This document shows positions 9,226 to 43,008 of a stretch of 64,000 bases of DNA, piece after piece. A model generated the notes under the pieces. It saw only the letters and a program-made list of their open reading frames with translations, was not told where the DNA came from and did no database searches. A program made the position numbers and the translations under genes. Source of the DNA: Cellulophaga fucicola (GTDB lineage Bacteria > Bacteroidota > Bacteroidia > Flavobacteriales > Flavobacteriaceae); the NCBI RefSeq assembly GCF_900119145.1, contig NZ_FPIY01000007.1, positions 1 through 64,000 on the forward strand, read 5' to 3'. The stretch's first letter is position 1, and every line of letters starts with the position of its first letter.

Positions 9226-9236
9226 AACTAATACTA

Positions 9237-12276: not shown

Positions 12277-14889
12277 CTATTTTTTTAACCAAGGTTCTTT
12301 ACTGTTATTTAAGTATGTAATAAACCAACCTGAACCCCAACCTGCACTCCAAAGAACATTTTCATTATAAGGGTCTGGCTTAACATCTACCATTTTATTA
12401 GGTTGCCCTAAGCCTTTGTTTATTTTTTTCCAACTAATAGCGCCGTCCTCGGACAAATAAATTCCTGGGTTTTTAAAATTATCAATTAAATTATTTGCTT
12501 GTCCGGCCACACTAATTACAATAATATTTTCATCTAAAGGAGAAGTCTCTACTTGCCAAACAAAAGGAGCATTAAAAATTTTATTCCAACTTTTTCCATT
12601 ATTTTTTGACATCCAAACACCGCCTTCTTCATAAGTTCCAGAACGTCTTCCGGTTGCTATGTATATGTTATGACTATTACGATCTATAAAAACATTATTT
12701 ACCGCTTTTATTTGGGATGGTATTTTAATTTTTTCCCAATTACTTCCTTTGTTTGTTGATTTATATAACCCTCCATCATCATCATTACAAGCAGCATACA
12801 AAATATTAGAGTTTTTAGAATCCATTTTAATTCTGCGTACACTTACATTTTTATGAAACCCATTATTACTTAACTCCCAAGTATAGCCGCCATCTAAAGA
12901 ACGGTAAAATCCATAACCACCCTTGGTAAGCTTTGGTGCTTTACTACCTACTTCTGAAATAGGTTTTTTAATAGCACAGAAATACATATTCTCTGGAGTA
13001 ACAGGATCTATAATTAAGGAGTATTGCATTGCCAAGCCCTCCCATGAATTGTTATCTGCATCAAAAATTGTGGCTATATTTTTCCAAGTTTTACCTCCAT
13101 CATTTGTTCTTCTTATTTTCCCTCTATGCTCTTGTCTCCAACCTAATGAATAAATAATATTTGGATTATTTGGATGTACAGCCATTGTAGAAGTAGAATG
13201 TTGACCGTGCATACCATTGTGGTCATGAACTTGACCATCTATTTGCTCTACAGCAACTGCCTGTTTATTAGGCCATTTATCCAAACTTGTTGTTTGCCAT
13301 AATCCGTGCTCGCCACTTGCCAGTAATCTTCTGTCGGGAATTCCTGTTTCCAACAGCATAAACCTTCCTGGTAAATTACTATCTCCACGCCCAATCCATT
13401 TATTACTTCCTTTAGATGTCTCATTATCATCAATCTGACACCAAGTTTTGCCGTTATCTGTAGATTTTAAAGTTTGTTGATCTATCCCTATAAAAACATC
13501 TCCTTTATTATTAATTGCTAACATACGGTTACCCGAAATTTCTGCATGGTTATTCATATATCTTTGCAGGTGTGCAAATGTTACATTTGCACCCATAGGG
13601 TTGTTTCTACTTTGCCAATATGCTGTATCTTTTTTTGACAACCAGTAAGTTCCTTGTCTTGCACAAGCAAACCAAGTTTTTCCACCGTCTTCAGTTTTCC
13701 AAAGGTCTCCTGCCCCAAAAGATTTATCATGCTTTTTATTAAAAGAAACATAAATTTCATTTTTATTTAAAGGATTAACAACCAACCTATTAAACACAGG
13801 TAAAATTCTATTAGGCAAAACTGTAAATTTAGACTTAGCCTCATTTTTTGTGATACCAAACCAAAAACCAATTGTTTTATAATACCTGTCTATTTCTGCA
13901 GAAAATTGTATTTTATTTAAGTTAATGTCTAAATTACCTGTACAATTAATCCAAGACGCACCATTGTCTATACTTTTATACACACCACCTTTAGAGGTTA
14001 CAGATTTTCCGTCTTTTTTATATTCTGTTTGTGTTACCAAGTACAATATAAACTCACCTGTTTTTGCATTGTAATAAGATGTTAGGTCTCTTGGTAAGTT
14101 GTTTGGTAGTCCTTTGTCACTTAAATGCCAGTTAGCACCACTGTCATTAGTTATATAAACTCCATAATTGGTGGTAATAAAAATATTCTTTGTGTTTTTA
14201 GGATGATAAACAATTCTGGCTACATCTAAATTTTCATTAATACTTGTTGCTATTTTAATCCAAGATTTTCCTCTGTCTTTGGTCTTTAAAACATAGCCAT
14301 AACTTGATCTTGAACTAATTTTTCCGTGCGGATTTTTTAAACTTCTATGGTTTTCTTTTACATTCCAAAAGTCGCCTGCTCCAATTAGCCATTCAGTATC
14401 ATCTTTAGGGTTTATAGCAATTTTTGTATGTGCATTACTAACGTGTTTACCACTTGTTCGCGGAATAGTATAAATTATTTTCCAACTTTTACCTCTGTCA
14501 TTAGATACATAAACGCCTCCTGCACGCTCTATTGCAACACCAAAGTCTGGATTTTGCCTAGAGAAAACAATATCATGTACACGTTCCATATCTAAACCAT
14601 TACCATCAAAATCTTTAATCGTATGCCACGATTTACCTGCATCCCAAGTTCCGTAACTTACGTGCATATCTGGCCCCATAAACATTGTATTGGTATCTGT
14701 TGAGTGTGTCCAAAACTCCTCGTTATAACCAGACATTCCTGGCCCAAAGTTATTCCATATAATTAACGAATCTGAGTCTACTCTCTCTGACTTAATTTTT
14801 TCAAAAAAATCATCCAAATTTTTCTTATTCTGACTATATCCTGTAGAAATAATTAATATAGAAACTAATAGTAAAATGTTAGTTTTCAT
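12277..14889 (-). CDS. Secreted BNR/Asp-box beta-propeller protein
   Basis: This 870-residue protein has a Sec signal (MKTNILLLVSILIISTGYSQ) and at least ten Asp-box repeats of the form S/T-x-D-x-G-x-x-W, for example TKDRGKSW, TEDGGKTW, TNDGGKTW and SLDGGYTW. That implies one or two seven-bladed propellers of the sialidase/Vps10/GH74-like fold. The fold alone does not give an enzyme: no sialidase RIP motif is visible, and I cannot assign GH74 with confidence. It is a single-gene unit whose promoter shares the heptamer found upstream of PUL enzymes, so it is probably induced with them. It may be a glycan-binding or novel glycan-active protein. A 226-bp gap of unclear content separates its 3' end from lacI. 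Confidence 0.7.
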   Translation of the reverse strand: MKTNILLLVSILIISTGYSQNKKNLDDFFEKIKSERVDSDSLIIWNNFGPGMSGYNEEFWTHSTDTNTMFMGPDMHVSYGTWDAGKSWHTIKDFDGNGLDMERVHDIVFSRQNPDFGVAIERAGGVYVSNDRGKSWKIIYTIPRTSGKHVSNAHTKIAINPKDDTEWLIGAGDFWNVKENHRSLKNPHGKISSRSSYGYVLKTKDRGKSWIKIATSINENLDVARIVYHPKNTKNIFITTNYGVYITNDSGANWHLSDKGLPNNLPRDLTSYYNAKTGEFILYLVTQTEYKKDGKSVTSKGGVYKSIDNGASWINCTGNLDINLNKIQFSAEIDRYYKTIGFWFGITKNEAKSKFTVLPNRILPVFNRLVVNPLNKNEIYVSFNKKHDKSFGAGDLWKTEDGGKTWFACARQGTYWLSKKDTAYWQSRNNPMGANVTFAHLQRYMNNHAEISGNRMLAINNKGDVFIGIDQQTLKSTDNGKTWCQIDDNETSKGSNKWIGRGDSNLPGRFMLLETGIPDRRLLASGEHGLWQTTSLDKWPNKQAVAVEQIDGQVHDHNGMHGQHSTSTMAVHPNNPNIIYSLGWRQEHRGKIRRTNDGGKTWKNIATIFDADNNSWEGLAMQYSLIIDPVTPENMYFCAIKKPISEVGSKAPKLTKGGYGFYRSLDGGYTWELSNNGFHKNVSVRRIKMDSKNSNILYAACNDDDGGLYKSTNKGSNWEKIKIPSQIKAVNNVFIDRNSHNIYIATGRRSGTYEEGGVWMSKNNGKSWNKIFNAPFVWQVETSPLDENIIVISVAGQANNLIDNFKNPGIYLSEDGAISWKKINKGLGQPNKMVDVKPDPYNENVLWSAGWGSGWFITYLNNSKEPWLKK

Positions 14890-16584: not shown

Positions 16585-17475
16585 ATGAAATCTATTTTAC
16601 GTGTAACTAAAAAAATCACATTACTACTAATTTTTATTTGTGTTGGGCAATCTTTTGCTCAAAAAGCTCCGTTTTTTAAAGATGGACAAGACCCAAAGCC
16701 TACCCATAAAAAATGGAAGCTAGTAAAAAACATGTCTGATGAATTTAAAGGCAAGAAAGTAAATGAGAGTAAATGGCAAATATCTGGTCAAGGATGGATT
16801 GGCCGTGCTCCAGGATTATTTTTAGCCGATAATATTAAGGTTAAAGATGGTAGTTTACAAATTACAACTACTCTATTAGACAAACCAATTATTAAAAACG
16901 GAAAAACATTTACGCACGGTGGTGGTTATGTAGGCTCTGTAAACGCAATGAAATACGGGTTTTACGAATGTAAAATGAAAGCCAACAAAACCTTTATGTC
17001 TTCTACTTTTTGGTTGATAAATGAATCTAGAGAACTTAAAGGTTGTGATAAAAGGGTTACAGAACTAGACATACAAGAAACTGTGGGGCAAATTGTAAAC
17101 AAAGCAGAATGGATGAAACATTTTGATGAATCTATGAACTCTAACACACACAGTAGAAACATACCGGAAGGTTGTGACTTTGAAAAAGGCTCTGTAAAAT
17201 CTAAAGGCAGTCTTAATAGTAAAACATATGATGATTTTCATGTATACGGAGTGTGGTGGAAATCTAAAGATGAAATTTTATTTTTTATAGATGGCAATTT
17301 TGTCTCCAAAGTAAAGCCTGCGGCAGATTTTAATATAGATATGTATTTAAGAATGGTTGTAGAAACGTATGACTGGAATCCGGTTCCTGAAGATGGCGGA
17401 ATGAACGGTTCTAAAGAAGAAAGAACTACTACCTACAACTGGGTAAGAACTTGGAAATTAGTAGACACTAAATAA
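16585..17475 (+). CDS. GH16 endo-galactanase (agarase/porphyranase/carrageenase class)
   Basis: The 296-residue secreted enzyme (signal ending QSFAQ) is a GH16 beta-jelly roll. The catalytic signature ExDxxE is present as ELDIQE with Glu160 as nucleophile, Asp162 and Glu165 as acid/base. Conserved GH16 elements include DEFKGKKVNESKW near residue 52 and a late WWKSKDEILFFIDG strand. No CBM or sorting domain follows. The sequence differs clearly from the typical GH16_16 agarase encoded at 29485, so the two endo-enzymes probably cut different motifs of the polymer. Subfamily is unresolved; porphyranase or carrageenase-like are both possible. It is 2 nt upstream of GH117 and 90 nt downstream of GH28. 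Confidence 0.82.
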   Translation: MKSILRVTKKITLLLIFICVGQSFAQKAPFFKDGQDPKPTHKKWKLVKNMSDEFKGKKVNESKWQISGQGWIGRAPGLFLADNIKVKDGSLQITTTLLDKPIIKNGKTFTHGGGYVGSVNAMKYGFYECKMKANKTFMSSTFWLINESRELKGCDKRVTELDIQETVGQIVNKAEWMKHFDESMNSNTHSRNIPEGCDFEKGSVKSKGSLNSKTYDDFHVYGVWWKSKDEILFFIDGNFVSKVKPAADFNIDMYLRMVVETYDWNPVPEDGGMNGSKEERTTTYNWVRTWKLVDTK

Positions 17476-18792: not shown

Positions 18793-20307
18793 CTAAATTT
18801 TAGTTTTTTCTCCTGTATCTCTGTAGTTATTATAGGTTGTAAAAAGGCTTTTTACTTTAGATGCATATTTAGGAGCATCTATCAAGTTTTGTTTTTCATT
18901 CTCCGTAATATTGGTATTTAGGTTAAATAATGCAACAGGTTTTCTAGTACTATCAGTCTTATCTTTTTTATCAAAAGCTATAATTAATTTCCAACCGTCT
19001 TTAATAATTATTGCTTCTTTACCCGTACCAGACTGTGTTACCAAATAAGAATGTACTTCTGTATTTTTATTCTCTCCTAGAAAAATAGGCAATAAATTAG
19101 CAGAATCTTTTGCTTGGTTTTCTTCAATTTCCTGATTTGTAATTGCTGCAAGTGTACTAAGAATATCAATACTTAAAACTGGTATTTTAGATGTACTACC
19201 AGACTTAATTTTTCCCGGCCACCAGACAATAAAAGGTACTCTATGTCCGCCTTCATAAGCTTGGTTTTTTCCGCCTCTATAAATATCATTAGATTTATGT
19301 CCCGCTTTTATACTTTTCTTTTTTAATAAACCTCCATTGTCTGATGTAAATACAATTACGGTATTATCATAAACACCTTTCTTTTTTAATGCAGCTACAA
19401 GCATTGCCATTTGCACATCTAACTCTTTTACCATATCTAAATGTTTAGATGGCGTTTCACCTGCAATTTTTTCTCCATTAAGTTTTTTGGTTGGTGTGTG
19501 TGGTAAGTGCACAGCCAAGGAACAGTAATACATAAAAAAAGGTTTGTCTGTATCTGCGTTAGCAATATAATCTACAGCTTTATTTACAAGTAATGGCCCC
19601 ATATTGTGCGGATCCCAATTTGTATCTCCTAAGCCTTCATCTTTATCTAGAGTAACCCCTATTTTTGTCATATTCTCTTGTGAAATATAACCAATTTCTG
19701 AGTTTTTTTCTAAAGGCATCCACTCTTCGTTTTCATATACAACATATGGCACGTTTTGTATACCTGCAGGAAAAGTTAAACTGTAATCAAAACCATTATC
19801 TAAAGGTCCTTTACCTACTATTTTGTTTACATCTACATCTAATTCTACTCTTTTTCTAGGTGATCTGTATATTTCTGTAGCGCTTCCTTTTTTTAAAAAA
19901 TCCATTCCAAAACCCCATTTGCCAAAAAAAGCTGTTTGGTATCCTGCATTTTTCATAAGCTTACCAAGTGTTAATTGGTCTGACTTAATGGGTGATGGTT
20001 GATATGATCCCCACACTCCCCAAGGAGCATAACTACGGTAGCAATTATTACCTGTCATTACTGCATATCTAGATGGCGCACATAACGCAGCAGGTGAATG
20101 TGCATCTGTAAAAGTCATTCCGCTTTTAGCTAAATTATCTATAGCGGGAGTTTTTAAAACTACATTATTGCTGTTCATTTGTCTGTAATAAGAAATATCG
20201 CCCACACCAATATCATCTGCTAAAACAACAATTACATTTGGTTGCTTTTGCGCGGAAACTTGTATTGTAAGAACAATACTTACTATAAAAACAATTTTCT
20301 TTAACAT
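18793..20307 (-). CDS. S1-family sulfatase
   Basis: This 504-residue type I sulfatase has a Sec signal (ending VSAQ), metal-binding Asp31 and Asp32 (VLADDIGVGD), and the formylglycine motif CAPSR with Cys76 as the residue converted by an anaerobic or aerobic maturase outside this window. A second metal site is visible as FTSDNGG, and YEGGHRVPFIVWWPG is typical of the C-terminal half. It is the third gene of a GH29-GH43-sulfatase unit, 6 nt after GH43. It likely removes a sulfate ester (for example from galactose or L-galactose units) so exo-glycosidases can proceed. Subfamily and regiospecificity cannot be called by eye. Confidence 0.9.
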   Translation of the reverse strand: MLKKIVFIVSIVLTIQVSAQKQPNVIVVLADDIGVGDISYYRQMNSNNVVLKTPAIDNLAKSGMTFTDAHSPAALCAPSRYAVMTGNNCYRSYAPWGVWGSYQPSPIKSDQLTLGKLMKNAGYQTAFFGKWGFGMDFLKKGSATEIYRSPRKRVELDVDVNKIVGKGPLDNGFDYSLTFPAGIQNVPYVVYENEEWMPLEKNSEIGYISQENMTKIGVTLDKDEGLGDTNWDPHNMGPLLVNKAVDYIANADTDKPFFMYYCSLAVHLPHTPTKKLNGEKIAGETPSKHLDMVKELDVQMAMLVAALKKKGVYDNTVIVFTSDNGGLLKKKSIKAGHKSNDIYRGGKNQAYEGGHRVPFIVWWPGKIKSGSTSKIPVLSIDILSTLAAITNQEIEENQAKDSANLLPIFLGENKNTEVHSYLVTQSGTGKEAIIIKDGWKLIIAFDKKDKTDSTRKPVALFNLNTNITENEKQNLIDAPKYASKVKSLFTTYNNYRDTGEKTKI

Positions 20308-21692: not shown

Positions 21693-23258
21693 CTAATCCG
21701 CATGAGCGTCTATGGCCCCTCCAATATTATTTTCTTTGTATCCTTCTAAAATAACCTTAAATGCGTGCGCATACTTAGTTGGGAATGTCCTAGGAGCTTC
21801 TATTACAAGTCCTCTCTGATCTCTTTTCCAATTAATTTTTTCATTACTACCCAATAGTGTTATGTTTTCTATTTTAGAATTTAAAACCCCTATAGAAGTA
21901 GATAAAGATTTTACAATAACTTCTTTTTCAGGAGTATCCATTACTATAATGTAGAATTCATTATCAGATTTTTTAGTAAACCTAATATCCGCGTTTGTAT
22001 ATTCTATTTTAAATTTTTCAACTTTATGCCCGCCTTCTGGTAAACGTGTTGGTCCTTCTCCAAAAATTGTCCAAGGTCTTGTACCGTAAATTGCATCTCC
22101 ATTTACAGCTAACCAACTCCCCATATCTAACAATAAATTTTTCATTTCATTTGGTATAGAACCATCAGGATTTGGCGGTACGTTTAAAAGCATTAATCCA
22201 TTTTTAGACACAATATCTACAAGTATATCTACAAGCTCGTTTGGAGTTTTAAATTTTGCGTTTGGTCTGTAAAACCAAGCCCCAGGAGAGGTGTCAGTTA
22301 ACCATGAAGCCGATTTTGGCTGATTAGGTCTTCCACGCTCATAGTCTTTAACAGCTGTAGTTTCTGGAAAAGTAGTTTCTTTATAAGACACCACTACTTC
22401 TTTGTTCCATTCTATTCCTTTGTTGTAGTAATAGGCTAAAAATTGTTGCCTACTTTCTTCAGTCATATTCTCTAACCACCAGTCAAACCAAATTAAATCT
22501 GGTTGGTACACATCTATATATTCTTTAATTTTAAGCCACCAATCATTATAAAAATCTTCATCTGGAGTATTAGATTCTAATGAATGCGGATTTGTATATA
22601 AGTCATAATCTTTAGGGCTTATGCCACCGTGTTTATGCGCAGGTGCAAAATATTTCCAAGTAAATGCATGATGAAAAGAAGCCATAAATTTTAGCCCCTT
22701 TGCCTCTATTTCTTTTTTTAGTTCTGCTGATGGATCTATGTCTCCATAATTTATAGAGTTCCAACGTGTAACCTTACTGTTCCACATAGCAAAATTATCA
22801 TGATGCATAGCTACGGGTCCTGCAAACTTTGCTCCAGATTTAGCAAACAAGTCTGCCCATTCTTTTGCATTAAAAGCTGTTGGAGAAAACTGTTCTATTA
22901 TATGCTTATAACCGTATTTAGCTGGGTTACCATACTTTTTTTTATGGTGGACATAGTTTGTTGTTGGCTTGCCGTTTTTAGTTGGTACTTTTTTTCCATC
23001 TTCATACATTTTCATTCCGTGCCAACCTGCATAATATTTAGTTGGGTCTGTACCTTCAAAAGCAGAAGAAACTGGTCCCCAATGCGCATAGATTCCAAAT
23101 TTTGCATCTTGAAACCAATTTGGAGCTGCATTTACTTTTTCTAATGACTCCCAACTCTCTTTATATGGCTTACTGTTATTTTTTTGTTCTTTTGATGATT
23201 GACTATAACCAAGTGCAGTTATACTAAGAGCTACTATTGTTAATTTAAATTTTATCAT
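21693..23258 (-). CDS. GH29 alpha-L-fucosidase/L-galactosidase-like (copy 1)
   Basis: This 521-residue secreted GH29 enzyme (signal ending LGYSQ) opens its barrel with WFQDAKFGIYAHWGP and has the substrate-binding MHHDNFAMWNS (about 151-161). The nucleophile is Asp259 in DLIWFDWW. The usual GH29 tail follows (NGLMLLNVPPNPDGSIP, then a beta-sandwich). GH29 retains alpha-L-fucosides, and L-galactose differs from L-fucose only at C6, so porphyran-type loci use GH29 as alpha-L-galactosidase. It is the first gene of a GH29-GH43-sulfatase operon with its own promoter box. It differs enough from the other two GH29 copies to suggest different linkages. Confidence 0.88.
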   Translation of the reverse strand: MIKFKLTIVALSITALGYSQSSKEQKNNSKPYKESWESLEKVNAAPNWFQDAKFGIYAHWGPVSSAFEGTDPTKYYAGWHGMKMYEDGKKVPTKNGKPTTNYVHHKKKYGNPAKYGYKHIIEQFSPTAFNAKEWADLFAKSGAKFAGPVAMHHDNFAMWNSKVTRWNSINYGDIDPSAELKKEIEAKGLKFMASFHHAFTWKYFAPAHKHGGISPKDYDLYTNPHSLESNTPDEDFYNDWWLKIKEYIDVYQPDLIWFDWWLENMTEESRQQFLAYYYNKGIEWNKEVVVSYKETTFPETTAVKDYERGRPNQPKSASWLTDTSPGAWFYRPNAKFKTPNELVDILVDIVSKNGLMLLNVPPNPDGSIPNEMKNLLLDMGSWLAVNGDAIYGTRPWTIFGEGPTRLPEGGHKVEKFKIEYTNADIRFTKKSDNEFYIIVMDTPEKEVIVKSLSTSIGVLNSKIENITLLGSNEKINWKRDQRGLVIEAPRTFPTKYAHAFKVILEGYKENNIGGAIDAHAD

Positions 23259-23397: not shown

Positions 23398-24306
23398 CTA
23401 CTTATTTACATACTTTTTAGGGAAAGAAGTAATTGGCGTAATACTTAAATTTTTATAATATACCTCAGCAGCTTCAGACTGTATTTGTATTTTTCCTTTA
23501 GTTACTGGTGTAACAATACCATTTTTTAAATAACGGGCATTTTTTACCCTGTTTACAACTTTACCGTTTACAAGGTGTATACTTTCTGGCCCCAAACAAT
23601 AAATTTCTAATGTATTCCATTCTCCGTTTGGCTTCTCAAACATTCCAAATTTACTTGCCTGACCAGACTCAAATTCTGCGCCCCATTTTAAAGGAACCAA
23701 TTCTGCATTAGGATTATATACAAAAAATGCCTTTCCGTTTTTAGCATACTTTTTTTCTGCGGGAACATCTCCAAAAACATCTGTTAGAGCAATAAAATCT
23801 CCACAATCTCCTTCTTGTACTTGAAACTCTAAGCTAGACATCCAAACATTCCAAAAAGCTCCGTGTGGCCCCTTTGCGTGGTATAAAATTCCGCTATCTC
23901 TTTTGGTACGTAAGCGTGGCTCCCATTTTTTTTGTCCCCATTTAAACTGTACAGATAAGTGGTAGTTTCCGTATTCTTTTTTAGTTGTTAAGCCACCGTA
24001 AATTTCTCCTGTTATTTTTAATACAGGCGTATTACCTTCTTTTATAACTGAAAAAACATTTTTAATATCTTTGTTTAAACCTAAGGGCTTTCCTGTTTTT
24101 ACATCTGTAAACTTTTCTACATCTAAATCTACAGAAGTATGTACGGCTCCCATCCAAACTTCCCAATTAGACAAGTTATCATCAAACAAATTAGCAGTAG
24201 ACGAGCTTGTGTTTTTTTTAACCTTAGTAGCTTTGCACCCAAAAAAAATTAAAGCGGTTAATATTATAATAAAAACGGGTGCTTTTTTTGAAAAAAATAC
24301 GTTCAT
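23398..24306 (-). CDS. DUF1080 (3-keto-disaccharide hydrolase-like) lipoprotein
   Basis: The start at 24306 gives a lipoprotein signal (lipobox FFGC); an earlier ATG at 24315 would add only three residues, and the longest frame reaches 24381. The roughly 302-residue protein has the DUF1080 concanavalin-like fold, with NWEVWMGAVHTS, KRDSGILYHAKGPHG, EFQVQEGDCGDFI, EWNTLEIYC and the terminal GKIQIQSEAAEVYYKNL. Members of this family hydrolyse or eliminate 3-keto-glycosides made by partner dehydrogenases. It lies downstream of a GH29 gene, but a hairpin terminator lies between them, so expression may be lower or separate. A possible partner oxidoreductase is encoded at 47378. Confidence 0.8.
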   Translation of the reverse strand: MNVFFSKKAPVFIIILTALIFFGCKATKVKKNTSSSTANLFDDNLSNWEVWMGAVHTSVDLDVEKFTDVKTGKPLGLNKDIKNVFSVIKEGNTPVLKITGEIYGGLTTKKEYGNYHLSVQFKWGQKKWEPRLRTKRDSGILYHAKGPHGAFWNVWMSSLEFQVQEGDCGDFIALTDVFGDVPAEKKYAKNGKAFFVYNPNAELVPLKWGAEFESGQASKFGMFEKPNGEWNTLEIYCLGPESIHLVNGKVVNRVKNARYLKNGIVTPVTKGKIQIQSEAAEVYYKNLSITPITSFPKKYVNK

Positions 24307-24386: not shown

Positions 24387-25934
24387 CTACATTTCTAACT
24401 CAATAACATATGCAAAGTCGCTTGGTTTTTCTTTAGGCATTGTAACCATTAAACCTTTATTATCTTGACTCCATTTAATCTCTTCTGTACTACCCAATAC
24501 TTTTGCACTGGTAATATTAATATCTTTTGCATATGTTGCTCCTTTAGCTAAAGATTCTATAGTTACAACACCATCTTTAGGCCAATCTAACACAATAGCA
24601 TATAATTTATTTTCTTTGGTTGTAAACCTAATATCTTTAGAAGATAGATCTTTATTATTACCCTCAGAGTGGTGACCTTTTTTAACCTCTGTTGGTCCTT
24701 CTCCAAACGTTTTCCAATAGGTAGTATCATAAATTGCTTCGCCATTAATTGCCAACCAGTCTCCTATTTGGAGTAAAATTTCTTTTTGATCTTCTGGTAT
24801 TGTTCCGTCTGATTTTGGACCTACATTTAATAATAGATTTCCATTTTTACTTACTATATCTACCAAATCATCTACAATTTGGTTGGCTGTTTTAGACTGC
24901 CAATTAGATACATAACTCCAAGAGTTTTTTCCTATTGATGTATCTGTTTGCCAAGGCAACTTACGTATACCTGGTAACTTACCACGTTCTAAATCATAAA
25001 TAACTGTACCCTCTGGAAAAGCTTCATGTGAAAAGTTTTTGTCTTGCAGCACAACTTCTTTACCCCACTCTAGACCTTTATTGTAGTAGTAAGCTGCTAA
25101 TTTTGGTCTTTGGTCTGCAAAATCTGGAATATCTAAATAAAAATCGAACCACATAATATCTGGTTGGTAATTGTCTATAATATCTTTAGTTCTTGCCCAC
25201 CATAATTCTTTAAATTCTTTAGAAACTGGCTCGTTTAAATTTTTACCTTTAGTTGAGTACAAATCTGCATATGCCGGGTCTGTAGTATCAAAATGATCTT
25301 TTTTATTGAAGAATGACCAATTAAAAGCAAAATGAGAAGACGCACCCATAATCATACCCTTTTGCCTTCCTGCTTTAAATAACTCTCCTAGAATATCTCT
25401 TTTAGGTCCCATATCTACAGAGTTCCAACGAGTAATATTAGACTTGTACATTGCAAAACCATCATGATGTTCTGCAACAGGAATTACATATTTTGCTCCT
25501 GATTTCTTAAATAAATCTATCCATTCGTTTGCGTCAAACTTTTCACCTTTAAACATTGGTATAAAGTCTTTATAACCAAACTCTTTTTGATCTCCCCAAT
25601 TTGCTTTATGATGCGTATATACATCTGATGGCCCTTTTTTTTCTGGCTTTAACTGCGCAGAAAAAGTAGCAGTGTCCATATACATTTTACGTGGATACCA
25701 TTCTGATGAATATTCAGGAACACTATAGGCTCCCCAATGAATAAAAATTCCGAATTTTTTTTTATTAAACCAAGTTGGATCTTTATAATTTTTTTTGATA
25801 GATTCCCAATTTGCTTCGTAAACTGGCTTTACTTCTTGAGTTACTTCTTCTTTCTTTTCCTTTTTATCTGCACAAGACAGAATAGTTAATGAAAGAATAA
25901 AAAAGCTCAGTACTATATATTTTCCACTTTTCAT
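24387..25934 (-). CDS. GH29 alpha-L-fucosidase/L-galactosidase-like (copy 2)
   Basis: This 515-residue lipoprotein (lipobox LSC, Cys21) is a GH29 barrel: WFNKKKFGIFIHWGAYSVP, VAEHHDGFAMYKS (about 153-165), and nucleophile Asp264 in DIMWFDFYLD. The C-terminal half has NGNLLLNVGPKSDGTIPEDQ and a beta-sandwich. Outer-membrane anchoring suggests action on larger oligosaccharides than the soluble copy 1. Its promoter carries the shared CATACGT box. The protein aligns more closely with the third copy at 37437 (both with DFIPMF and AEHxDGFAM) than with copy 1. Substrate is inferred from locus context. Confidence 0.88.
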   Translation of the reverse strand: MKSGKYIVLSFFILSLTILSCADKKEKKEEVTQEVKPVYEANWESIKKNYKDPTWFNKKKFGIFIHWGAYSVPEYSSEWYPRKMYMDTATFSAQLKPEKKGPSDVYTHHKANWGDQKEFGYKDFIPMFKGEKFDANEWIDLFKKSGAKYVIPVAEHHDGFAMYKSNITRWNSVDMGPKRDILGELFKAGRQKGMIMGASSHFAFNWSFFNKKDHFDTTDPAYADLYSTKGKNLNEPVSKEFKELWWARTKDIIDNYQPDIMWFDFYLDIPDFADQRPKLAAYYYNKGLEWGKEVVLQDKNFSHEAFPEGTVIYDLERGKLPGIRKLPWQTDTSIGKNSWSYVSNWQSKTANQIVDDLVDIVSKNGNLLLNVGPKSDGTIPEDQKEILLQIGDWLAINGEAIYDTTYWKTFGEGPTEVKKGHHSEGNNKDLSSKDIRFTTKENKLYAIVLDWPKDGVVTIESLAKGATYAKDINITSAKVLGSTEEIKWSQDNKGLMVTMPKEKPSDFAYVIELEM

Positions 25935-27700: not shown

Positions 27701-29362
27701 TTAATCGTTCCAATGCTCGTCTATCACTTTTTGTATGTGCGGAAACTTACTACCATCTTCTTCGTTTAAGCTTTTACGCTTTTCTTTTAACTGTTGTTTA
27801 AGTTCCTTAATTATATCTTTATACGCAGGGTCATTGTAGGCATTATTCATTTCTTTAGGATCTTTAGATAAATCATAAAACTCCCAAGCAACTGGCGTAT
27901 CCATCTCAAACTTATTACCCCAACTTTTTTTGTTCCATGTGGCATTAGGGTCTTTGGTATCTACCCAATATTTACCATAAAAAAATATTAATTTGTATTG
28001 TTTTGTTCTAATACCAAAATGCGCTGGATTTGCATGCGCATGTGCCATATGCATCCAATACCTGTAGTAGGTAGACTGTTGCCAATCTTTTGGTTCTTTA
28101 CCTGTTTCTAATATTGTTTTAAAACTATGTCCCTGCATTTGTTTTGGAGCTTTACCACCTGCTAAATCTATTAAAGTAGGTGCAAAATCTGCATTGTTAA
28201 TTATAGCATCTGTTCTAGTACCTGCTTTTATTTTTTCTGGGTAACGCACAAAAAATGGCATACGCATAGACTCATCATACATCCATCTTTTATCTATATA
28301 ATCATGTTCTCCTAGCATAAAACCTTGATCACCTGTATACACAATTATAGTATTATCATACAAGCCTTCTTCCTTTAAAAACTTTACTAGTCTTGCAACG
28401 TTATCATCTACACCTTTTACGCAACGTAAATATCTTTTTAAATACTCTTGATATGTTTTATGCGTATATTCTTTATCACTTATATCTAAAGAAATAGCAT
28501 TAGAAACATTAAACTCTGGGTTAGAAATTTTTGTAAATTCATTAGACCAGATTCTCATTCCCATACCTCTTACTATATTTCTTTTAGATACTGATGAGCC
28601 AATAACGCGTAGTAAAGAGTCATTAGCACCTCTTGTTGCAATAGAACCATTATTTCCATTTTCATACAAACTTGCAGGTTCTGGTATGTATGTATTTTCT
28701 AAATAATCTTTATAGCGCGGTGCATACTCAAAATCGTCATGAGGTGCCTTGTAATGGTGCATTAAAAAGAATGGTTTGTCTTTATTACGTTTATCTTTTA
28801 ACCAAGCAATAGTTAAATCTGTAATATTATCACTAGAATGCCCTTTTGTTTGTATTCTATTTTTAGGCCATTCTTGCTCTCCTTGTACTATAAATTCAGG
28901 GTTATGGTATTTACCTTGTCCTGGCAATACCGCATAATAATCAAAAACAGCAGGTTCATCTTCTAAATGCCATTTGCCAACTACAGCAGCCTCATACCCC
29001 AGTTTTTTCATTTCTTGCGGCAAATATTGTCTTTCTGGCGGTACGTGACCTTCTAAATCTAACACGCCGTTTGCCTGACTGTATTGCCCTGTAATCATAG
29101 TTGCTCTACTTGGTGTACAAATAGAATTTGTAACAAAGCAATTGTCAAAAATTATACCCTCGTTTGCAATTTTATCAAGATTTGGAGTAGGGTTTAAACT
29201 TGCCAACCTGCTACCATATATACCAAAAGCCTGTGATGTATGATCATCTGCCATGATATAAATAATATTTGGCTTTTTAATTTCTGTGCTAGTTTCTACT
29301 TTTTCTTTACAAGAAATTGCAACAACAATAAGTAGAGAAAAACAAAATACCTTTTTAAGCAT
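27701..29362 (-). CDS. S1-family sulfatase lipoprotein
   Basis: This 553-residue sulfatase lipoprotein (lipobox ISC, Cys18) has metal ligands in YIMADDHTSQ and the maturation motif CTPSR with Cys82 as formylglycine precursor. Later motifs include VYTGDQGFMLGEHDYIDKR and MYDESMRMPFFVRYP, typical of exo-acting S1 enzymes. Compared with the 18793 sulfatase it is lipid-anchored, longer, and has a different active-site helix, so it probably takes another sulfate position. It heads a unit with the DUF5060 gene, and its promoter carries two copies of the shared heptamer. Confidence 0.9.
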   Translation of the reverse strand: MLKKVFCFSLLIVVAISCKEKVETSTEIKKPNIIYIMADDHTSQAFGIYGSRLASLNPTPNLDKIANEGIIFDNCFVTNSICTPSRATMITGQYSQANGVLDLEGHVPPERQYLPQEMKKLGYEAAVVGKWHLEDEPAVFDYYAVLPGQGKYHNPEFIVQGEQEWPKNRIQTKGHSSDNITDLTIAWLKDKRNKDKPFFLMHHYKAPHDDFEYAPRYKDYLENTYIPEPASLYENGNNGSIATRGANDSLLRVIGSSVSKRNIVRGMGMRIWSNEFTKISNPEFNVSNAISLDISDKEYTHKTYQEYLKRYLRCVKGVDDNVARLVKFLKEEGLYDNTIIVYTGDQGFMLGEHDYIDKRWMYDESMRMPFFVRYPEKIKAGTRTDAIINNADFAPTLIDLAGGKAPKQMQGHSFKTILETGKEPKDWQQSTYYRYWMHMAHAHANPAHFGIRTKQYKLIFFYGKYWVDTKDPNATWNKKSWGNKFEMDTPVAWEFYDLSKDPKEMNNAYNDPAYKDIIKELKQQLKEKRKSLNEEDGSKFPHIQKVIDEHWND

Positions 29363-29484: not shown

Positions 29485-30465
29485 TTAATCTGCTTTAACC
29501 GGTTTAAAAATTCTAATCCAATCTACTTTAAATGTATTATTCTCTTCATTAGCCAATTCTGCATCTGAAGGAGTTATATTTTTGTCTGATCTCCAAGTTT
29601 GGTCTTCTGCATTAATAATAATATCCATAGGCTTACTTAAACCTTTACCCTCTGCAAAATCATTAGGATCTATCATATCTTCACCAGAAGTTGTTCTTAC
29701 CAATTTACCATTAATATAATATTCTAAATGAAAAGGATCCCTCCAGTAAACACCTACTCTATGAAATTCTTCTCTCCACAATGTGCCAACCTCATCTTTA
29801 TACCAACTACCAGAATCTGTTGGTTGGTAATCTTGAAAAGGATCTCTAATAAACATATGATGACTTAAGTGAATACGCTCTGCATACCAGGTTTGGTCTG
29901 CTTCTGCTAACTCAGAATAACTTGCTCCATAAGCCTCTACAATATCTATTTCTTGAGTATCATCTGAACTTAAAAGCCAAACATCTGATGCCAAAGTAGT
30001 ATTTGCTATTTTTACATTTGCCTCTATATACACAGGGTATATTACTTGCTCTTTAGATGTAATACATCCTAAATGAATTTTATTAGAATTTGGCACTCTA
30101 CTTGCTACCATTTGTAAATAACCATCTTTTACTAAAGAGTGGTCTCTTTTCCATTCTGTTAATCCTGGACCAGACCATTGGTTGTGATAAAAGTCTGTCC
30201 ATTTTGCATTAAACTCTGCTCCTTTGTTAGCTGCTTCTGCCTCATAGTCAAAACTGTCTGACATATCTTGAAATTCCCAAACATTACCTTCTCCTGCATT
30301 TGGAGGCACCGGAATTGTTTTCCATGTTACTTCTGGTTCTTCTGTTGGGGTATCTGGAGTTTCTACTATCTCTTCTTTTTCTTCCAATTTGTTTGTTGAA
30401 TCGTTATTGCTACAAGAGACAGCGTAAAAAAATAAGAACAGTATTGCTACATTAAATTTCATCAT
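29485..30465 (-). CDS. GH16 beta-agarase (GH16_16-like) lipoprotein
   Basis: This 326-residue lipoprotein (lipobox VSC, Cys18) has an acidic linker (about 25-47) and then a GH16 domain. The active site is EIDIVE with nucleophile Glu172, Asp174 and acid/base Glu177. Strong agarase hallmarks are WSGPGLTEWKRDHS, HHMFIRDPFQDYQPTDSGSW and FHRVGVYWRDPFHLEYYING. These enzymes cut beta-1,4 linkages of agarose, releasing neoagaro-oligosaccharides for the SusC/D pair next door. The gene follows the SGBP terminator and has its own terminator, so it appears to be transcribed alone; no CATAYGT box is visible upstream. Confidence 0.9.
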   Translation of the reverse strand: MMKFNVAILFLFFYAVSCSNNDSTNKLEEKEEIVETPDTPTEEPEVTWKTIPVPPNAGEGNVWEFQDMSDSFDYEAEAANKGAEFNAKWTDFYHNQWSGPGLTEWKRDHSLVKDGYLQMVASRVPNSNKIHLGCITSKEQVIYPVYIEANVKIANTTLASDVWLLSSDDTQEIDIVEAYGASYSELAEADQTWYAERIHLSHHMFIRDPFQDYQPTDSGSWYKDEVGTLWREEFHRVGVYWRDPFHLEYYINGKLVRTTSGEDMIDPNDFAEGKGLSKPMDIIINAEDQTWRSDKNITPSDAELANEENNTFKVDWIRIFKPVKAD

Positions 30466-32183: not shown

Positions 32184-33986
32184 TTAGTTATTCAAATTTG
32201 GATTAGCTGTAACTTCGCTATTTGGTATAGGGTAGTATCCATGAATACTTTCGTTATAATTTACAGCAGCTTGCGCATAATCTACAAACGTAAAACCATT
32301 TGCTAGGGGGCTTTCTCCTTCTCTTAAAATAGAAGCCCATCTTGTTACAGACTTACCTTCTTTATCTGTAAAAGGGAAATCTTCTGCCCAATATCTTCTT
32401 TGACTTAAATCTTGAAAACGTTCTTTTAAAACTCCCCAACGTCTTAAATCTAGAAAACGAATTGCATGCCCTTCTTCTGCCAATTCTAATGGTCTTTCTA
32501 TATACATTAAATGCTCCATTAAACTGTTTGCGTCATAAGCCACATCATCATGATCTGCTGCTGGATAGCTACCAGTACCATTAAGACCTATAAGTTTTAA
32601 AGCAGAACGATGTCTTACTTCATTTACCAAAGCCATTGCCTGTTCTACACCACCATCATCTGTACCACCTTTAATTAAGCATTCTGCCAACATTAAGTAA
32701 ACATCTGCTAAACGTACTAATCTAATATTAACACCAGATCGTGTATTTGGTACTATATCACTCTCTGTTGCTACAGTTGCCCAGTTTGTGTATTTTCTAA
32801 AATAAGCTGTTTCTTTATTGTTAAACGGACTTGCATCTGCAGTAGATAAACCTCCGTAATAAGGAGTGTCTTTATCGTCTACTACCGCAATAGAATACGA
32901 TGCACGTAGTGAGTAAGATCTTGGTCTCATTAAAGTTACAGGATCGCAACCTTCTTCACCATCTTCACAAGCCACAAAGTTTCTAGGATCACTTAAATCC
33001 AATTCTTCACTTTTGTAAGCCATTTGCAACCATGTACTTGGCATAGAAGCTCTATAACCTCCTAAATTAGCAGGTGCAAATATTCTACCTAAAGTATTAG
33101 ATACATTTTGACTATCGTAAGGATTTAATTCTGATTTAAAGTTTACAGAATAACTAACTTCTAAAATAGACTCAGAATTAAATTCACCTGCCTCTGAAAA
33201 ATTATCGTCTATGTTTTCTACCAAAGACCTACCATATTCTCCGTTAGTAATAATATCATTAAAATATACTGCTGCAGTTGTATAATCTTCTTCATACAAA
33301 TAGCTTCTGCCTAATTCTGCGGCTGCGGCTGCGCCTGTTACACGGCCAACGTTTGCATTTCCGTCCCATGATGGAGGTAAATTTTCGTATGCAAATTCTA
33401 AGTCTGCTAAGTAAAAAGCTTTTACCTCATTTGCAGGACTTAATGGTTGGTAAAAATCGCTTTCTGCTTCTGGAACAAAATCAAAAATTGGCACACTACC
33501 TTGGTTATACATATTGTATAGATAACTGTAAGATATTCCTCTAAAAAATTTAGCTTGAGCAATAATTTGAGTTGCAAAATCTATTTTATCTTGGTCTTTA
33601 TAAGTTGCTATTAATCTTTCTCCGTTTGATATAACTTGGTTAGACCTAAAAATAACAGTATAAGTTGCAGACCATTTATTTCTAATATCATTTTCTGCAT
33701 CATTAAATGTTTGCAGGTAAAATGCATTTTGCGTGTTTGGTCTACCAAAACCAGGCCAGCTCATATCTGCTCTATGGTTGTCTGATAATACATTAAAAAC
33801 ACTTGTATTTTTAAAAGCGTTATATACAGAAGTTAAACCTCCGTTAAGATCTACGTTATTTTTCCAGAAACTACCTGTTGAAAGCTCGTTAGGATTAGTT
33901 TCTTCCAAATAATCATCTGAACATGCTGTACTGCACATAACACACAGTAAAACAACAGCTATTTTGTTAAATATTAATTTTTTCAT
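32184..33986 (-). CDS. susD: SusD/RagB-family outer-membrane glycan-binding lipoprotein
   Basis: The 600-residue lipoprotein (lipobox TAC, Cys22) has the SusD start (YLEETNPNELSTGSFWKN, then ALTSVYNAF-type helix), the TPR-like helices, and the conserved C-terminal HAIRFLDLRRWG and YYPIPNSEV motifs. SusD proteins lie over the SusC barrel and capture oligosaccharides. Overlap with SusC is absent (17-nt gap), and the order SusC-SusD-SGBP is standard. The cargo here is probably agar or porphyran oligosaccharides, from the adjacent GH16 agarase. Confidence 0.94.
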   Translation of the reverse strand: MKKLIFNKIAVVLLCVMCSTACSDDYLEETNPNELSTGSFWKNNVDLNGGLTSVYNAFKNTSVFNVLSDNHRADMSWPGFGRPNTQNAFYLQTFNDAENDIRNKWSATYTVIFRSNQVISNGERLIATYKDQDKIDFATQIIAQAKFFRGISYSYLYNMYNQGSVPIFDFVPEAESDFYQPLSPANEVKAFYLADLEFAYENLPPSWDGNANVGRVTGAAAAAELGRSYLYEEDYTTAAVYFNDIITNGEYGRSLVENIDDNFSEAGEFNSESILEVSYSVNFKSELNPYDSQNVSNTLGRIFAPANLGGYRASMPSTWLQMAYKSEELDLSDPRNFVACEDGEEGCDPVTLMRPRSYSLRASYSIAVVDDKDTPYYGGLSTADASPFNNKETAYFRKYTNWATVATESDIVPNTRSGVNIRLVRLADVYLMLAECLIKGGTDDGGVEQAMALVNEVRHRSALKLIGLNGTGSYPAADHDDVAYDANSLMEHLMYIERPLELAEEGHAIRFLDLRRWGVLKERFQDLSQRRYWAEDFPFTDKEGKSVTRWASILREGESPLANGFTFVDYAQAAVNYNESIHGYYPIPNSEVTANPNLNN

Positions 33987-34003: not shown

Positions 34004-37000
34004 TTAAAATTTAAATTCAATACCAGCTCTATATTGTGTACTTATTGGATATACACCTGCATCTATACCACGAGTACTTAAACCGTCATTTCCAATTTCT
34101 GGATCAAAACCGTCGTAACCTGTAATGGTTAATAGGTTATCTGCTGCTATGTAAAATCTTAATTTATTAATATTAAGCTTCTCATTTAATTTTTTAGGTA
34201 AAGTGTACCCTAGAGTTACGTTTCTTAGTCTACCAAAACTTCCGTCTTGCAACCAATAATCTGTATAACCTCTATAATTAAAATGATCTCTACCTCTGTC
34301 TGAAGGCACAGTTGAAGTTGGATTTGAAAGTGTCCATTGGTGAACCAAGTCTTGGTGTGTACCTTGCTTATAAGCATAAGCTTTACTACCATTTATAATT
34401 TCTCCTCCTATTGCAGCATACCAGTTCATAGAAAAATCTAGGTTCTTATAATTTGCATTAAAGTTTAAACCCAACTCATATTCTGGAGCTCCACTACCTT
34501 TATAAACTCTATCATCTAAAGTAATTTCACCATCTCCTGTGTCTGCAACACCATCGTTATTAGTATCTACTGTTGGTTGGTCTACATATCTAAGATCTCC
34601 AAGGTTTGCTGTAGGGTCTAATAATCTATACTCATCTAACTGTTCTTGCGTTGTTACAAGTCCGTCTGTTTCTACTAAAAAGAATGCACCAGCCTCATAC
34701 CCTTCTCTAAGAGCAGTAACTAAATCTTCTCCTGGTAAACCTGGTGCTACTTGACTACCACCTAAAAATGAAAATTTATTAGAATCACTCATTCTAGTAA
34801 TTCTGTTTTCGTTTTTAGAATAGTTAGCAGAAACATTCCAGCTAAACTTACCTCTATGCTTATAATTAGCACTCCACTCCGTACCATAGTTACGCATATC
34901 ACCAACGTTTAATATTACACTAGAGTTGTTACCACCACCAACTGTTGGCGGTAAAATAACTGGGAATAACATATTAGTTCTAGAACCATCGTAAACTTCA
35001 CTAGTTACCGTAAGCTTGTTGTTAAAAAAACCGAACTCCATACCAAAGTTCTTTTCAATTTTCTTTTCCCATTTTGCCTTAGGGTTTTTAAACGCTTCTT
35101 GTATAGCTCCTAAAACCAATACTTGGTCTGATCCTGTACCAAAAACATAATCATGTCCTAAACCAATAGTTGGTGCTGTACTATAATCTAAAATACTTTG
35201 GTTACCTGTTGTACCATAACTAAACCTCATTTTAAAGAAGTTAAACGTTTTTCCAAATACTTTATCCCAACCTTCTTCATCAGAAGCAATCCAAGCTGCA
35301 GATGCAGAAGGTGCATAGATCCATCTATTTTCTTCAGAAAAACGACTTGTACCATCACGTCTAAGACTGGCACTTACTAAGTATTTTCCTTTATAATCGT
35401 ACTGTACACGACTTAACATACCTATTAAAGTATTTGTTCTGTCTTGTCCGTAACCATTACCTGTACCAACATTAGCATCTAAGGTTGCGCCATTTAAGTT
35501 GGTTATTTCATTATTAAAAAGATCGAACTTCTGTGCAAAGAAAGAATCGTATGTATATTTTTCTGCACTTACCGCGCCTACTAAAGTTACGTGGTGATCT
35601 CCAAATGTTTTATCAAAAGTTGCAATACCATCTATAGTTGCACTAGTAGATCTATCACTTTGATTGTAAACTCCAGATCTAACTTGTTGTGGTATTAAAT
35701 CTCCTTCTACTGAATACGCAGTAAATAAAGGATTTATTCTTACACGTGTATTATTTGTTCTACTTAAAGAAGCACGTGTAGTTAATTTAAAACTTGGAAG
35801 AACTTGACGATCTATTTGCATACGTGCATCAAAATTATCACCTTTTCTAACATCAGATTGCTTTAGTTTAGCTGTTAAAAAACTTAAATTTACAGCATCG
35901 TTACTATTTGCATCACCTGCACTATCGTCTATAGTTGGTGAGTTTGGATCTATTATTTGCTGATAAGGTTTGTATCTATAACCATCTAGTAATACTTGCC
36001 AAGGTGTATATTCTTGCTCATCTGTTCTAAGGCCTATACCTGTAGTAAATGTCCATTTTCCTTTTTTGTACGTTGTATTTGCCCTTACATTTAATCTTTC
36101 TAAACCAGAATTAATTAAAGATCCTTGTTGATCAAAATAGTTAACAGATACATTAAATCTTAATCCCTCTTTACCTCCAGAAATATTCAGGTTATGGTTT
36201 TGTATTAAAGCCATATCTTCCTGAAGAATATCCATAAGGTTAGTTTTATTAGTAAAATCATTAGGATTTTGCTCTAAAGTTGTAAATGAGTTGTTTGGAA
36301 AAGTACCGTTAATATTATTTAACCTTACAAACTGACTATACATAGAATCTTCAAAATTCATTAAAGGAACACTAGATATAATGTCTTGTACACCCATATA
36401 GCTAGTAATACCAATATCCATTTTACCAACTTTACCAGATTTAGTGGTAATTAAAATTACACCAGCAGAACCTCTTGTACCATAAATTGCGGCAGATGCA
36501 GCATCTTTAAGTACATCTATAGTTTCTATCTCTGCAATACTTAATTGTGGGTTACCATCTTGTGGTATACCATCTACAACATAAAGTGGCGAGTTACTAC
36601 CAAAAACAGAGTTAATACCACGTATAAGTATTACTGCATCTGATCCTGGCTGACCACTACTAGAAGTTACGTTTACACCTGCAATTTGCCCTTGCAGCGC
36701 ACTACCAACATCTGCAGTAGATATTTTTTCAATATCCTCTGCACGTACTTGAGCTACTGCTCCTGTTACTTCTCTCTTCTTTTGTACACCGTATCCAATA
36801 AGAACCACTTCTTTTAATGCTTCTATATCTTCTTCCATAGTTACATCAATAGTAGTTTTAGAGCCTACGGTAATTTCTTTTGCCACATAGCCTATATAAC
36901 TAAATATTAATACACTATTTGGCGCTGCTTGTATTGTGTAGTTTCCATCAAAATCTGTAACTACTCCTACTGTTGTACCTTTTACAACAACACTTACCCC

Positions 37001-37144
37001 TAAAAGTGGCTCGCCTTCTCCACTAACATTACCTTTTACGGTTTTTGTTTGTGCCTGAACCAAACCAAAGCCTATAACAAAAAATAGAATCGTTAAAAAA
37101 GCTTTATGTCTAGACTTAACAAGTAAATTAAATTTCATTTCCAT
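34004..37144 (-). CDS. susC: SusC/RagA-family TonB-dependent transporter
   Basis: This 1046-residue outer-membrane receptor has a Sec signal (ending LVQAQ), a carboxypeptidase-D regulatory-like domain (about 33-110, VKGNVSGEGEPLLGVSVVVKG), a plug domain (from about 115, VVLIGYGVQKKREVTGA, and YVVDGIPQDGNP) and a 22-strand-type barrel ending in RAGIEFKF with terminal Phe. There is no N-terminal signalling extension of FecR/anti-sigma type. It imports oligosaccharides using TonB energy with SusD as lid. A second ATG two codons downstream is equally possible. The upstream 290 bp contain one CATATGT box. Confidence 0.95.
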   Translation of the reverse strand: MEMKFNLLVKSRHKAFLTILFFVIGFGLVQAQTKTVKGNVSGEGEPLLGVSVVVKGTTVGVVTDFDGNYTIQAAPNSVLIFSYIGYVAKEITVGSKTTIDVTMEEDIEALKEVVLIGYGVQKKREVTGAVAQVRAEDIEKISTADVGSALQGQIAGVNVTSSSGQPGSDAVILIRGINSVFGSNSPLYVVDGIPQDGNPQLSIAEIETIDVLKDAASAAIYGTRGSAGVILITTKSGKVGKMDIGITSYMGVQDIISSVPLMNFEDSMYSQFVRLNNINGTFPNNSFTTLEQNPNDFTNKTNLMDILQEDMALIQNHNLNISGGKEGLRFNVSVNYFDQQGSLINSGLERLNVRANTTYKKGKWTFTTGIGLRTDEQEYTPWQVLLDGYRYKPYQQIIDPNSPTIDDSAGDANSNDAVNLSFLTAKLKQSDVRKGDNFDARMQIDRQVLPSFKLTTRASLSRTNNTRVRINPLFTAYSVEGDLIPQQVRSGVYNQSDRSTSATIDGIATFDKTFGDHHVTLVGAVSAEKYTYDSFFAQKFDLFNNEITNLNGATLDANVGTGNGYGQDRTNTLIGMLSRVQYDYKGKYLVSASLRRDGTSRFSEENRWIYAPSASAAWIASDEEGWDKVFGKTFNFFKMRFSYGTTGNQSILDYSTAPTIGLGHDYVFGTGSDQVLVLGAIQEAFKNPKAKWEKKIEKNFGMEFGFFNNKLTVTSEVYDGSRTNMLFPVILPPTVGGGNNSSVILNVGDMRNYGTEWSANYKHRGKFSWNVSANYSKNENRITRMSDSNKFSFLGGSQVAPGLPGEDLVTALREGYEAGAFFLVETDGLVTTQEQLDEYRLLDPTANLGDLRYVDQPTVDTNNDGVADTGDGEITLDDRVYKGSGAPEYELGLNFNANYKNLDFSMNWYAAIGGEIINGSKAYAYKQGTHQDLVHQWTLSNPTSTVPSDRGRDHFNYRGYTDYWLQDGSFGRLRNVTLGYTLPKKLNEKLNINKLRFYIAADNLLTITGYDGFDPEIGNDGLSTRGIDAGVYPISTQYRAGIEFKF

Positions 37145-40334: not shown

Positions 40335-40349
40335 ACTTTTCTTTTAAAT

Positions 40350-41456: not shown

Positions 41457-41467
41457 TTGATTGGGTT

Positions 41468-42982: not shown

Positions 42983-43008
42983 AGTTTTATTCTTTTAAGG
43001 TTAACAAT

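Follow-up and report, generated by a model that had tools for sequence, protein, structure and literature searches.

The locus examined here raises the question of whether a bacterium that hydrolyses red-algal galactans may also break them by oxidation. The stretch analysed (hereafter the window) comprises the initial 64,000 nucleotides of contig C14 in the 3.9 Mb genome of Cellulophaga fucicola; its G+C content is 33%, and the relatives of its proteins are found mostly in Flavobacteriaceae. A preliminary description of this DNA had proposed that a DUF1080 protein (PF06439, the 3-keto-disaccharide hydrolase family; 23398-24306, minus strand) and a Tat-exported Gfo/Idh/MocA oxidoreductase (hereafter Gfo; 47378-48700, minus strand) work in series, the latter oxidising a glycoside at C3 and the former cleaving the keto-glycoside. 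Our analysis points tentatively to a hydrolytic locus with an oxidative side branch that acts on alpha-L-galactosides in the periplasm and has cytochromes as electron sink, a reading that we consider possible and short of probable. The Tat-exported Gfo would oxidise an alpha-L-galactosyl residue at C3 (L-galactose in porphyran, perhaps at a sulfatase-exposed end), the DUF1080 lipoprotein would then break or process the 3-keto-glycoside via elimination/hydration, and a PSCyt/DUF1501/NHL/DUF2231 cassette would pass the electrons towards the respiratory chain. The data in support are the genes themselves, their families, the fold, the export-type N-termini, a linkage kept in four genomes, and adjacency in relatives. 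Enzymes of this class have been described before; of greatest interest is the cytochrome cassette attached to the galactan operon.

This cassette (38949-46263), which the preliminary description had missed, consists of four minus-strand genes between a divergent AraC-type regulator gene (46488-47357, plus strand) and a GH29 gene (37437-38927). The first encodes a PSCyt1-PSCyt2-PSD1 cytochrome with two CxxCH motifs and a lipoprotein-like start (43009-46263), and is followed by genes for a DUF1501 protein with a Tat signal (41468-42982), an NHL-repeat protein with a Tat-like signal (40350-41456), and a protein joining a DUF2231 membrane domain to PSCyt1, with one CxxCH motif (38949-40334). The genes are separated by 26, 11, and 15 bp, and a further 21 bp lead to the GH29 gene. 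The PSCyt1, PSCyt2, and PSD1 domains together with the haem motifs place the cassette among PSCyt/PSD systems, and the haem sites are kept in relatives at 45% or above, with two CxxCH motifs in 24 of 24 PSCyt1-PSCyt2 proteins and one in 12 of 12 DUF2231 proteins. Searches of PDB sequences gave no match for the DUF1501 protein at E 0.1 and only generic beta-propeller matches for the NHL protein.

The cassette and Gfo are often neighbours. Our genome-search counts are lower bounds, drawn from 299 sampled genomes of the family, with scoring limited to the top candidates of each genome (no more than 7, 5, and 2). Of the 16 genomes that encode both a Gfo orthologue and PSCyt (PSCyt at 55% or above, window included), 11 have the two genes no more than 1.2 kb apart, and in four genomes they stand on one strand, 32-142 bp from each other. 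We also fetched 20 Gfo loci, namely the best-scoring copy from each of the 20 top-ranked genomes other than that of the window; PSCyt and DUF1501 adjoin Gfo in ten of these, eight of which also have the AraC gene.

The planctomycete-type cassette, co-directional here with GH29 and SusC/D genes, occurs in many Flavobacteriaceae genomes. A second, more distant cassette is encoded in the same genome at C12:97-105 kb (locus L161, C12:90000-109000), with a 787-aa PSCyt1-PSCyt2-like protein, DUF1501, NHL, a 268-aa protein, and a 686-aa DUF2231-PSCyt1-like protein. In six genomes with the cassette and without a Gfo orthologue (L163, L164, L165, L167, L168, and L169), a di-haem protein with two CxxCH motifs is encoded directly after the cassette; both of those tested (L165 and L168) are CCP_MauG proteins by Pfam. 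No account of the cassette was found in the available text of PMC5613140, PMC5698469, PMC11036162, or PMC12316285, a term search of PMC4807772 gave no match, and the available text of a report on Verrucomicrobia (PMC5615132) gives PSCyt genes as lying near sulfatases and having no known function.

The DUF1080 identification was borne out by profile, with a PF06439 score of 91.3 bits against a cut-off of 26.8 (E 1e-25). The ATG at 24306 gives a single-domain protein of 302 aa, while the mechanical open reading frame starts from TTG 24381 and gives 327 aa. The N-terminus is lipoprotein-like and ends in Cys24, followed by KATKVKK. Acidic residues after the cysteine bear on the surface export of lipoproteins, and because they are absent here the sequence suggests a protein facing the periplasm rather than the cell surface. 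With 63 aligned natural sequences as input, AlphaFold2 gave a model of mean pLDDT 90.9, and in VIA-align 2 its 14 best rows (Z 16.8-19.4) are all DUF1080-type structures, the same 14 entries that a DUF1080 sequence profile finds at E 0.001. The top score, Z 19.4, goes jointly to the 3-keto-glycoside eliminase/hydratase 9fbe_A (rmsd 3.2 over 176 residues) and to three uncharacterised structures, 3imm, 4jqt, and 3hbk; BT2157 (3osd) and the Alistipes hydratase 8v31 both score Z 17.2. CBM66 (Z 15.9) and lectins and glucanases (13-14) score lower, and the jelly-rolls of CBM66, lectins, a toxin binding domain, and glucanases in this search were taken to reflect a shared scaffold. Foldseek likewise puts DUF1080-type structures first. 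The modelled protein has the fold of the solved DUF1080 members, some of which carry the names 3-keto-glycoside eliminase/hydratase and 3-keto-2-hydroxy-glucal hydratase. Residues E160, Q162, and N247-G248 are common with canonical DUF1080 copies and are kept in 57 to 63 of the 63 rows of an alignment whose rows were picked as relatives of the window subfamily. NCBIfam gave no match for any DUF1080 protein submitted to it, not even for the canonical ones, and its lack of a hit here therefore carries no information.

The oxidoreductase was likewise confirmed as a Tat-type Gfo/Idh/MocA protein by PF01408 (E 5.5e-20), PF19051 (E 4.6e-26), and an SRRGF Tat motif from residue 17. Its best solved matches are 8TDF (E 6e-33) and 8TDH (E 3e-30), and its nearest NCBIfam model is the BT_2158 glycoside 3-dehydrogenase (NF058561). 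At E <1e-118 we found 37 orthologues in 35 of the 299 genomes. All 25 fetched orthologues have an RR pair in the N-terminus, and all 26 rows (these 25 and the window) retain E155, K156, P157, D275, and H279; we take the EKP motif and D275/H279 (DxxxH) to be catalytic. One orthologue (L067) adjoins genes for FucP and L-fucose dehydrogenase, both scoring over their cut-offs, and lies near a fuconolactonase-like gene (266 of 400 bits), UxuA, and D-mannonate oxidoreductase. L-fucose is 6-deoxy-L-galactose, which fits the FucP, L-fucose dehydrogenase, and fuconolactonase-like genes beside this Gfo; UxuA and D-mannonate oxidoreductase would point equally to uronates.

The linkage of the two enzymes is clearest in the closest relatives of the window DUF1080. 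A scan of the genome collection found 406 stretches encoding a DUF1080 relative, of which the best 80, in 79 loci, were kept, and a tree was built of 63 rows (62 of the 83 listed domains and the window). In this tree the window protein falls into a subclade of four single-domain proteins with those of Cellulophaga baltica DSM 24729, Maribacter sp. 1_MG-2023, and M. spongiicola (support 99/92). Each of the three relatives has a window-type Gfo (78-80% identical) on the contig that carries its DUF1080 gene, at a distance of 23-27 kb. Cellulophaga baltica has Gfo, AraC, cassette, GH29, SusC/D, agarase, and DUF1080 in the window order, unbroken, and both Maribacter genomes keep the blocks Gfo-AraC-cassette-GH29 and sulfatase-DUF5060-GH29-DUF1080-sulfatase-GH29. 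Closer pairs also occur. A Gfo orthologue stands 14 bp before a ThuA-DUF1080 gene in one Polaribacter locus (L138, 57%) and one gene away from DUF1080 in another (L142, 60%), on the same strand in each case, although both loci were found via DUF1080 and so form a biased sample. In both Maribacter genomes a two-domain DUF1080 gene and a second Tat-Gfo gene are divergent from the window-type Gfo, at a distance of about 380-390 bp; at the matching position Cellulophaga baltica has xylose-use-like genes, read from sequence starts. Beside their window-type Gfo, both Maribacter loci (L187, L189) additionally encode a UxuA-like protein and a protein of 744 or 761 aa; the L187 copy, the one tested, is a PVC-type haem-binding CxxCH protein.

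The four-genome subclade sits inside a 19-row clade (support 97/95), and in the remaining 15 rows an N-terminal ThuA is fused to DUF1080 (ThuA match in 15 of 15). Pfam confirms ThuA plus DUF1080 in L086, inside this clade, and in L138, outside it. Given the fusion in the other 15 rows, the window protein would descend most simply from a ThuA-DUF1080 fusion by loss of ThuA. In one Labilibaculum locus a ThuA-like gene occurs together with Gfo and DUF1080. Of the 20 closest DUF1080 loci, several of which are cut off at contig ends, ten (L081-L084, L086, L088, L091, L092, L094, and L095) carry genes of galactan type within 10 kb, among them GH29, GH16, DUF5060, and GH43-like genes; L099 has only a GH3-type-cluster gene, and the other nine have none of them. 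The subfamily travels often, not always, with agar-type loci.

The surrounding genes agree with the galactan locus named in the preliminary description. By homology with agarase B, porphyranase B, and BpGH29, the region is a hydrolytic agar/porphyran utilisation locus. It encodes a beta-agarase-B-like GH16 (29485-30465, minus strand; match E 8e-123, with no Pfam match at E 0.001) and a porphyranase-B-like GH16 (16585-17475, plus strand; E 5e-149). The DUF1080 gene lies between two minus-strand GH29 genes, its direct upstream neighbour (24387-25934) being 80 bp away and its direct downstream neighbour (21693-23258) 139 bp away. PDB comparison covered two of the three GH29 proteins. The upstream neighbour of DUF1080 matches 7SNK (E 2e-129) and 7LJJ (E 4e-128) best, as does the GH29 that follows the cassette (37437-38927; E 2e-118 and 1e-116), and both appear exo-alpha-L-galactosidase-like; 7SNK and 7LJJ are structures of one enzyme, the porphyran exo-alpha-L-galactosidase BpGH29 (PMC12316285, available text). 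Also on the minus strand are a SusC-like transporter with TonB plug and carboxypeptidase-like domains (34004-37144), a SusD-like lipoprotein (32184-33986), and two sulfatases (27701-29362 and 18793-20307), and Pfam adds GH2 and GH43 to this hydrolytic route. Pfam scans covered 40 of the 42 listed window proteins, those at 3-1025 and 58090-58686 being left out. The locus further contains an 870-aa protein with Sortilin/BNR repeats (12277-14889) and is flanked by MerR, phytoene desaturase-like, and phytoene synthase genes (48882-55945). Near the Cellulophaga baltica locus (L188), sequence starts point to comparable MerR and crt-type genes, and these flanks suggest the same chromosomal site in both.

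The preliminary description had also drawn an FAD oxidoreductase (PF12831, E 1.3e-92; 6946-9225, minus strand) into the redox route. The enzyme is present, and as with the DUF1080 and Gfo family matches its E-value excludes chance, but the proposed role was not borne out. It is probably cytosolic, because its Pfam match starts at residue 23 and leaves no room for an export signal, and it adjoins an SSF transporter gene (9237-10883, minus strand) in the window and in six of six fetched relatives. The search covered 13 genomes, eight of them with a full-length relative, of which G236 and G018 were left out of the neighbourhood set. Against PDB sequences the protein gave short nucleotide-binding matches only. 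With no room for an export signal and with the SSF transporter as partner, a part for it in the DUF1080 step was rejected. The FAD-SSF pair (6946-10883) is conserved in galactan-type loci, often beside LacI and GH2/GH43-like genes.

Several observations weigh against the oxidative side branch. The available text of PMC12316285 indicates that a sulfatase-GH29-GH2 route already accounts for porphyran breakdown, and no NADH:cytochrome step was identified. The placement of DUF1080 and Gfo in one locus holds insofar as they share locus and strand, but they lie 23 kb apart rather than in the one operon of the canonical arrangement, with the plus-strand AraC gene splitting Gfo from the rest. Within 10 kb of Gfo, DUF1080 occurs in one of the 20 fetched Gfo loci (with one more at 12.6 kb), and a window-type Gfo (55% or above) is found within 10 kb in 2 of the 79 DUF1080 loci; on these counts a conserved two-gene unit was rejected as a general rule and kept for some species. 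Both genes occur in 14 of the 299 genomes and lie within 30 kb of each other in three, window included, and none of 17 other close DUF1080 genomes has Gfo in the locus (a 43% relative occurs in one of them, on a different contig). The linkage in the four subclade genomes was inherited with one locus and counts as one event, and in both Maribacter genomes another SusC/D stretch, on the opposite strand, parts the cassette block from the DUF1080 block. The cassette, for its part, is not tied to Gfo, because all four of its genes stand together in nine of nine genomes (L163-L171) picked for having a PSCyt gene without a Gfo orthologue; among the ten Gfo loci with PSCyt and DUF1501, seven have NHL and only three have DUF2231. 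At the protein level, Gfo scores 179.4 bits against a cut-off of 750 for NF058561, over residues 17-291 only, far short of the family threshold, while contig C12 of the same genome encodes a closer Tat-type Gfo (469 bits to BT_2158, likewise under the cut-off). Near its C-terminus the window DUF1080 reads QSEA where five of five printed alignments to solved members read QDHG, and all 63 rows retain E278 of this motif. The genome encodes three further DUF1080 proteins; the two at L005 have QDHG, and the one at L006 has QSES. The query-normalised Foldseek TM-scores to the 18 top rows are merely 0.32-0.47. Fuller 3-keto modules also exist elsewhere in the genome, as in a C12 cluster (L005) with a GMC oxidoreductase, Gfo, two xylose-isomerase-like proteins, and two DUF1080 proteins within 8 kb. 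This cluster is much like known 3-ketoglycoside clusters, and any keto-glycoside activity of the window DUF1080 might be fed from it. The DUF1080 gene at C12:570 kb adjoins a CE2-type esterase gene.

The substrate is a further point of this kind. Agarose is made of alternating 3-linked beta-D-galactose and 4-linked 3,6-anhydro-alpha-L-galactose, and in porphyran L-galactose-6-sulfate takes the place of the anhydro sugar. In neoagaro-oligosaccharides, one of the test substrates named in the preliminary description, O3 of galactose is glycosylated and O3 of the anhydro sugar is held in the bridge. They have no free 3-OH and therefore cannot yield a 3-keto product, which makes them unsuitable for the assay proposed; oxidation at C3 would be open only to porphyran L-galactose units or a terminal D-galactose. 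The proposed series of oxidation and DUF1080 action has a precedent elsewhere, the fold, and species with adjacent genes on its side, but here it lacks the shared operon and a Gfo above the family cut-off, and we regard the pairing as plausible and putative.

How much of this bears on DUF1080 itself, and how much on the choice of its oxidant, can be judged by setting the explanations side by side. Summed over the window Gfo and any other oxidant, action of the DUF1080 protein on keto-glycosides appears probable. The oxidant could be encoded elsewhere, the window Gfo serving the cytochromes and L-fucose/L-galactose or uronate metabolism instead. This alternative, which we also hold to be possible, draws on the C12 cluster and its 469-bit Tat-type Gfo, on the 17 of 20 close DUF1080 genomes without a window-type Gfo in the locus, on the fucose and uronate genes around the L067 orthologue, and on the PSCyt genes beside Gfo in 10 of 20 loci; it would leave the galactan locus reliant on an unlinked cluster, and it sits poorly with the two Polaribacter and two Maribacter genomes in which Gfo adjoins DUF1080. 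We find it rather unlikely that DUF1080 is no keto-glycoside enzyme at all, but a direct glycosidase or a carbohydrate-binding lipoprotein on a re-used jelly-roll scaffold. The named solved relatives are keto-glycoside enzymes, ThuA is fused to DUF1080 within its clade, and E160, Q162, and N247-G248 are retained; yet the subfamily has QSEA in place of QDHG, the same scaffold recurs in lectins, CBM66, and GH16-type enzymes (Z 13-16), and GH29 genes flank the gene. In the available text of two reports, a Thermogutta DUF1080 protein is proposed as a backbone glycosidase (PMC5673643) and THTE_1561 is cited as an endo-xanthanase/lichenase (PMC9007349).

A neighbourhood due to chance, with SSF-FAD, GH29/sulfatase/DUF1080, and cytochrome/Gfo as independent modules merely side by side, seems improbable. 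Each of the three does occur without the others, and while the cassette/Gfo and DUF1080 blocks are together in four genomes, SSF-FAD accompanies them in only two (the window and G286). The unbroken order from Gfo to DUF1080 shared by Cellulophaga baltica and the window, and the 11-26 bp gaps that run from the cassette into GH29 here, speak against such a coincidence.

The oxidative side branch would gain in reach if the cassette served marine Flavobacteriaceae as a respiratory module for oxidising sugars in the periplasm, an extension that we think unlikely and state for its consequences. The oxidant would be Tat-Gfo, or other enzymes beside CCP_MauG in Gfo-less genomes, the substrates L-galactose/L-fucose-type glycosides, and the cytochromes would lead to the respiratory chain, with a diverged, ThuA-derived DUF1080 cleaving the keto-glycoside. 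If this were true, it would give planctomycete-specific cytochrome families a first function and a large orphan cytochrome group (PSCyt with DUF1501) a testable role, and marine bacteria would break red-algal galactans partly by oxidation, beside hydrolysis. Even if the pairing of Gfo and DUF1080 fails, the run from the cassette into GH29 links PSCyt cytochromes to alpha-L-galactoside breakdown, and PSCyt function becomes testable in cultured relatives such as Cellulophaga baltica and Maribacter spongiicola.

Among known systems, the nearest is the BT2157/BT2158-type 3-keto-glycoside pathway of gut Bacteroidetes, for which DUF1080 (3OSD, 8TDA, 8V31, 8RR2, and 9FBE) and Gfo-type (8TDF and 8TDH) structures have been solved. 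The window shares with it the predicted DUF1080 fold and a Gfo whose best matches are 8TDF and the BT_2158 model; it differs in the QSEA motif, in a Gfo far under the family cut-off, in the 23 kb between the genes, in a galactan setting with cytochromes, and in a candidate alpha-L-galactoside substrate. The Thu route for trehalose uses ThuA and ThuB. ThuA (PF06283) is fused to DUF1080 in sister lineages, whereas the window subclade has no ThuA, and the one ThuA match of the genome lies on another contig. Oxidation followed by DUF1080 action is known elsewhere (PMC9007349, available text), and the LacABC plus DUF1080 lactose route of Caulobacter described there follows the same oxidise-then-cleave logic in the periplasm; its oxidant is LacABC, and no GMC domain was found in the 40 scanned window proteins. 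The porphyran exo-cycle of Bacteroides plebeius (S1_11, BpGH29, and BpGH2C; PMC12316285) has sulfatase, GH29, GH2, and GH16 homologues here, and a term search of the main text of that report finds no oxidoreductase or dehydrogenase, unlike the window. Redox genes have precedents in red-algal galactan loci, since AA3 and OXR appear in a figure legend's gene list for carrageenan loci of other bacteria (PMC5698469); these oxidoreductases belong to other families than those of the window, and the word cytochrome is absent from the main text of that report. The available text of PMC11036162 describes a GH109/Gfo protein of unassigned function that peaks on arabinogalactan, and PMC10628242 treats Agrobacterium eliminase work in two passages, which do not enter the argument here. 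Finally, the PSCyt/PSD cytochromes of Verrucomicrobia (PMC5615132, available text) have in common with the cassette the PSCyt and PSD domains and the sulfatases nearby, whereas the window cassette stands in a Flavobacteriaceae galactan locus, together with DUF1501 and a Tat-type Gfo.

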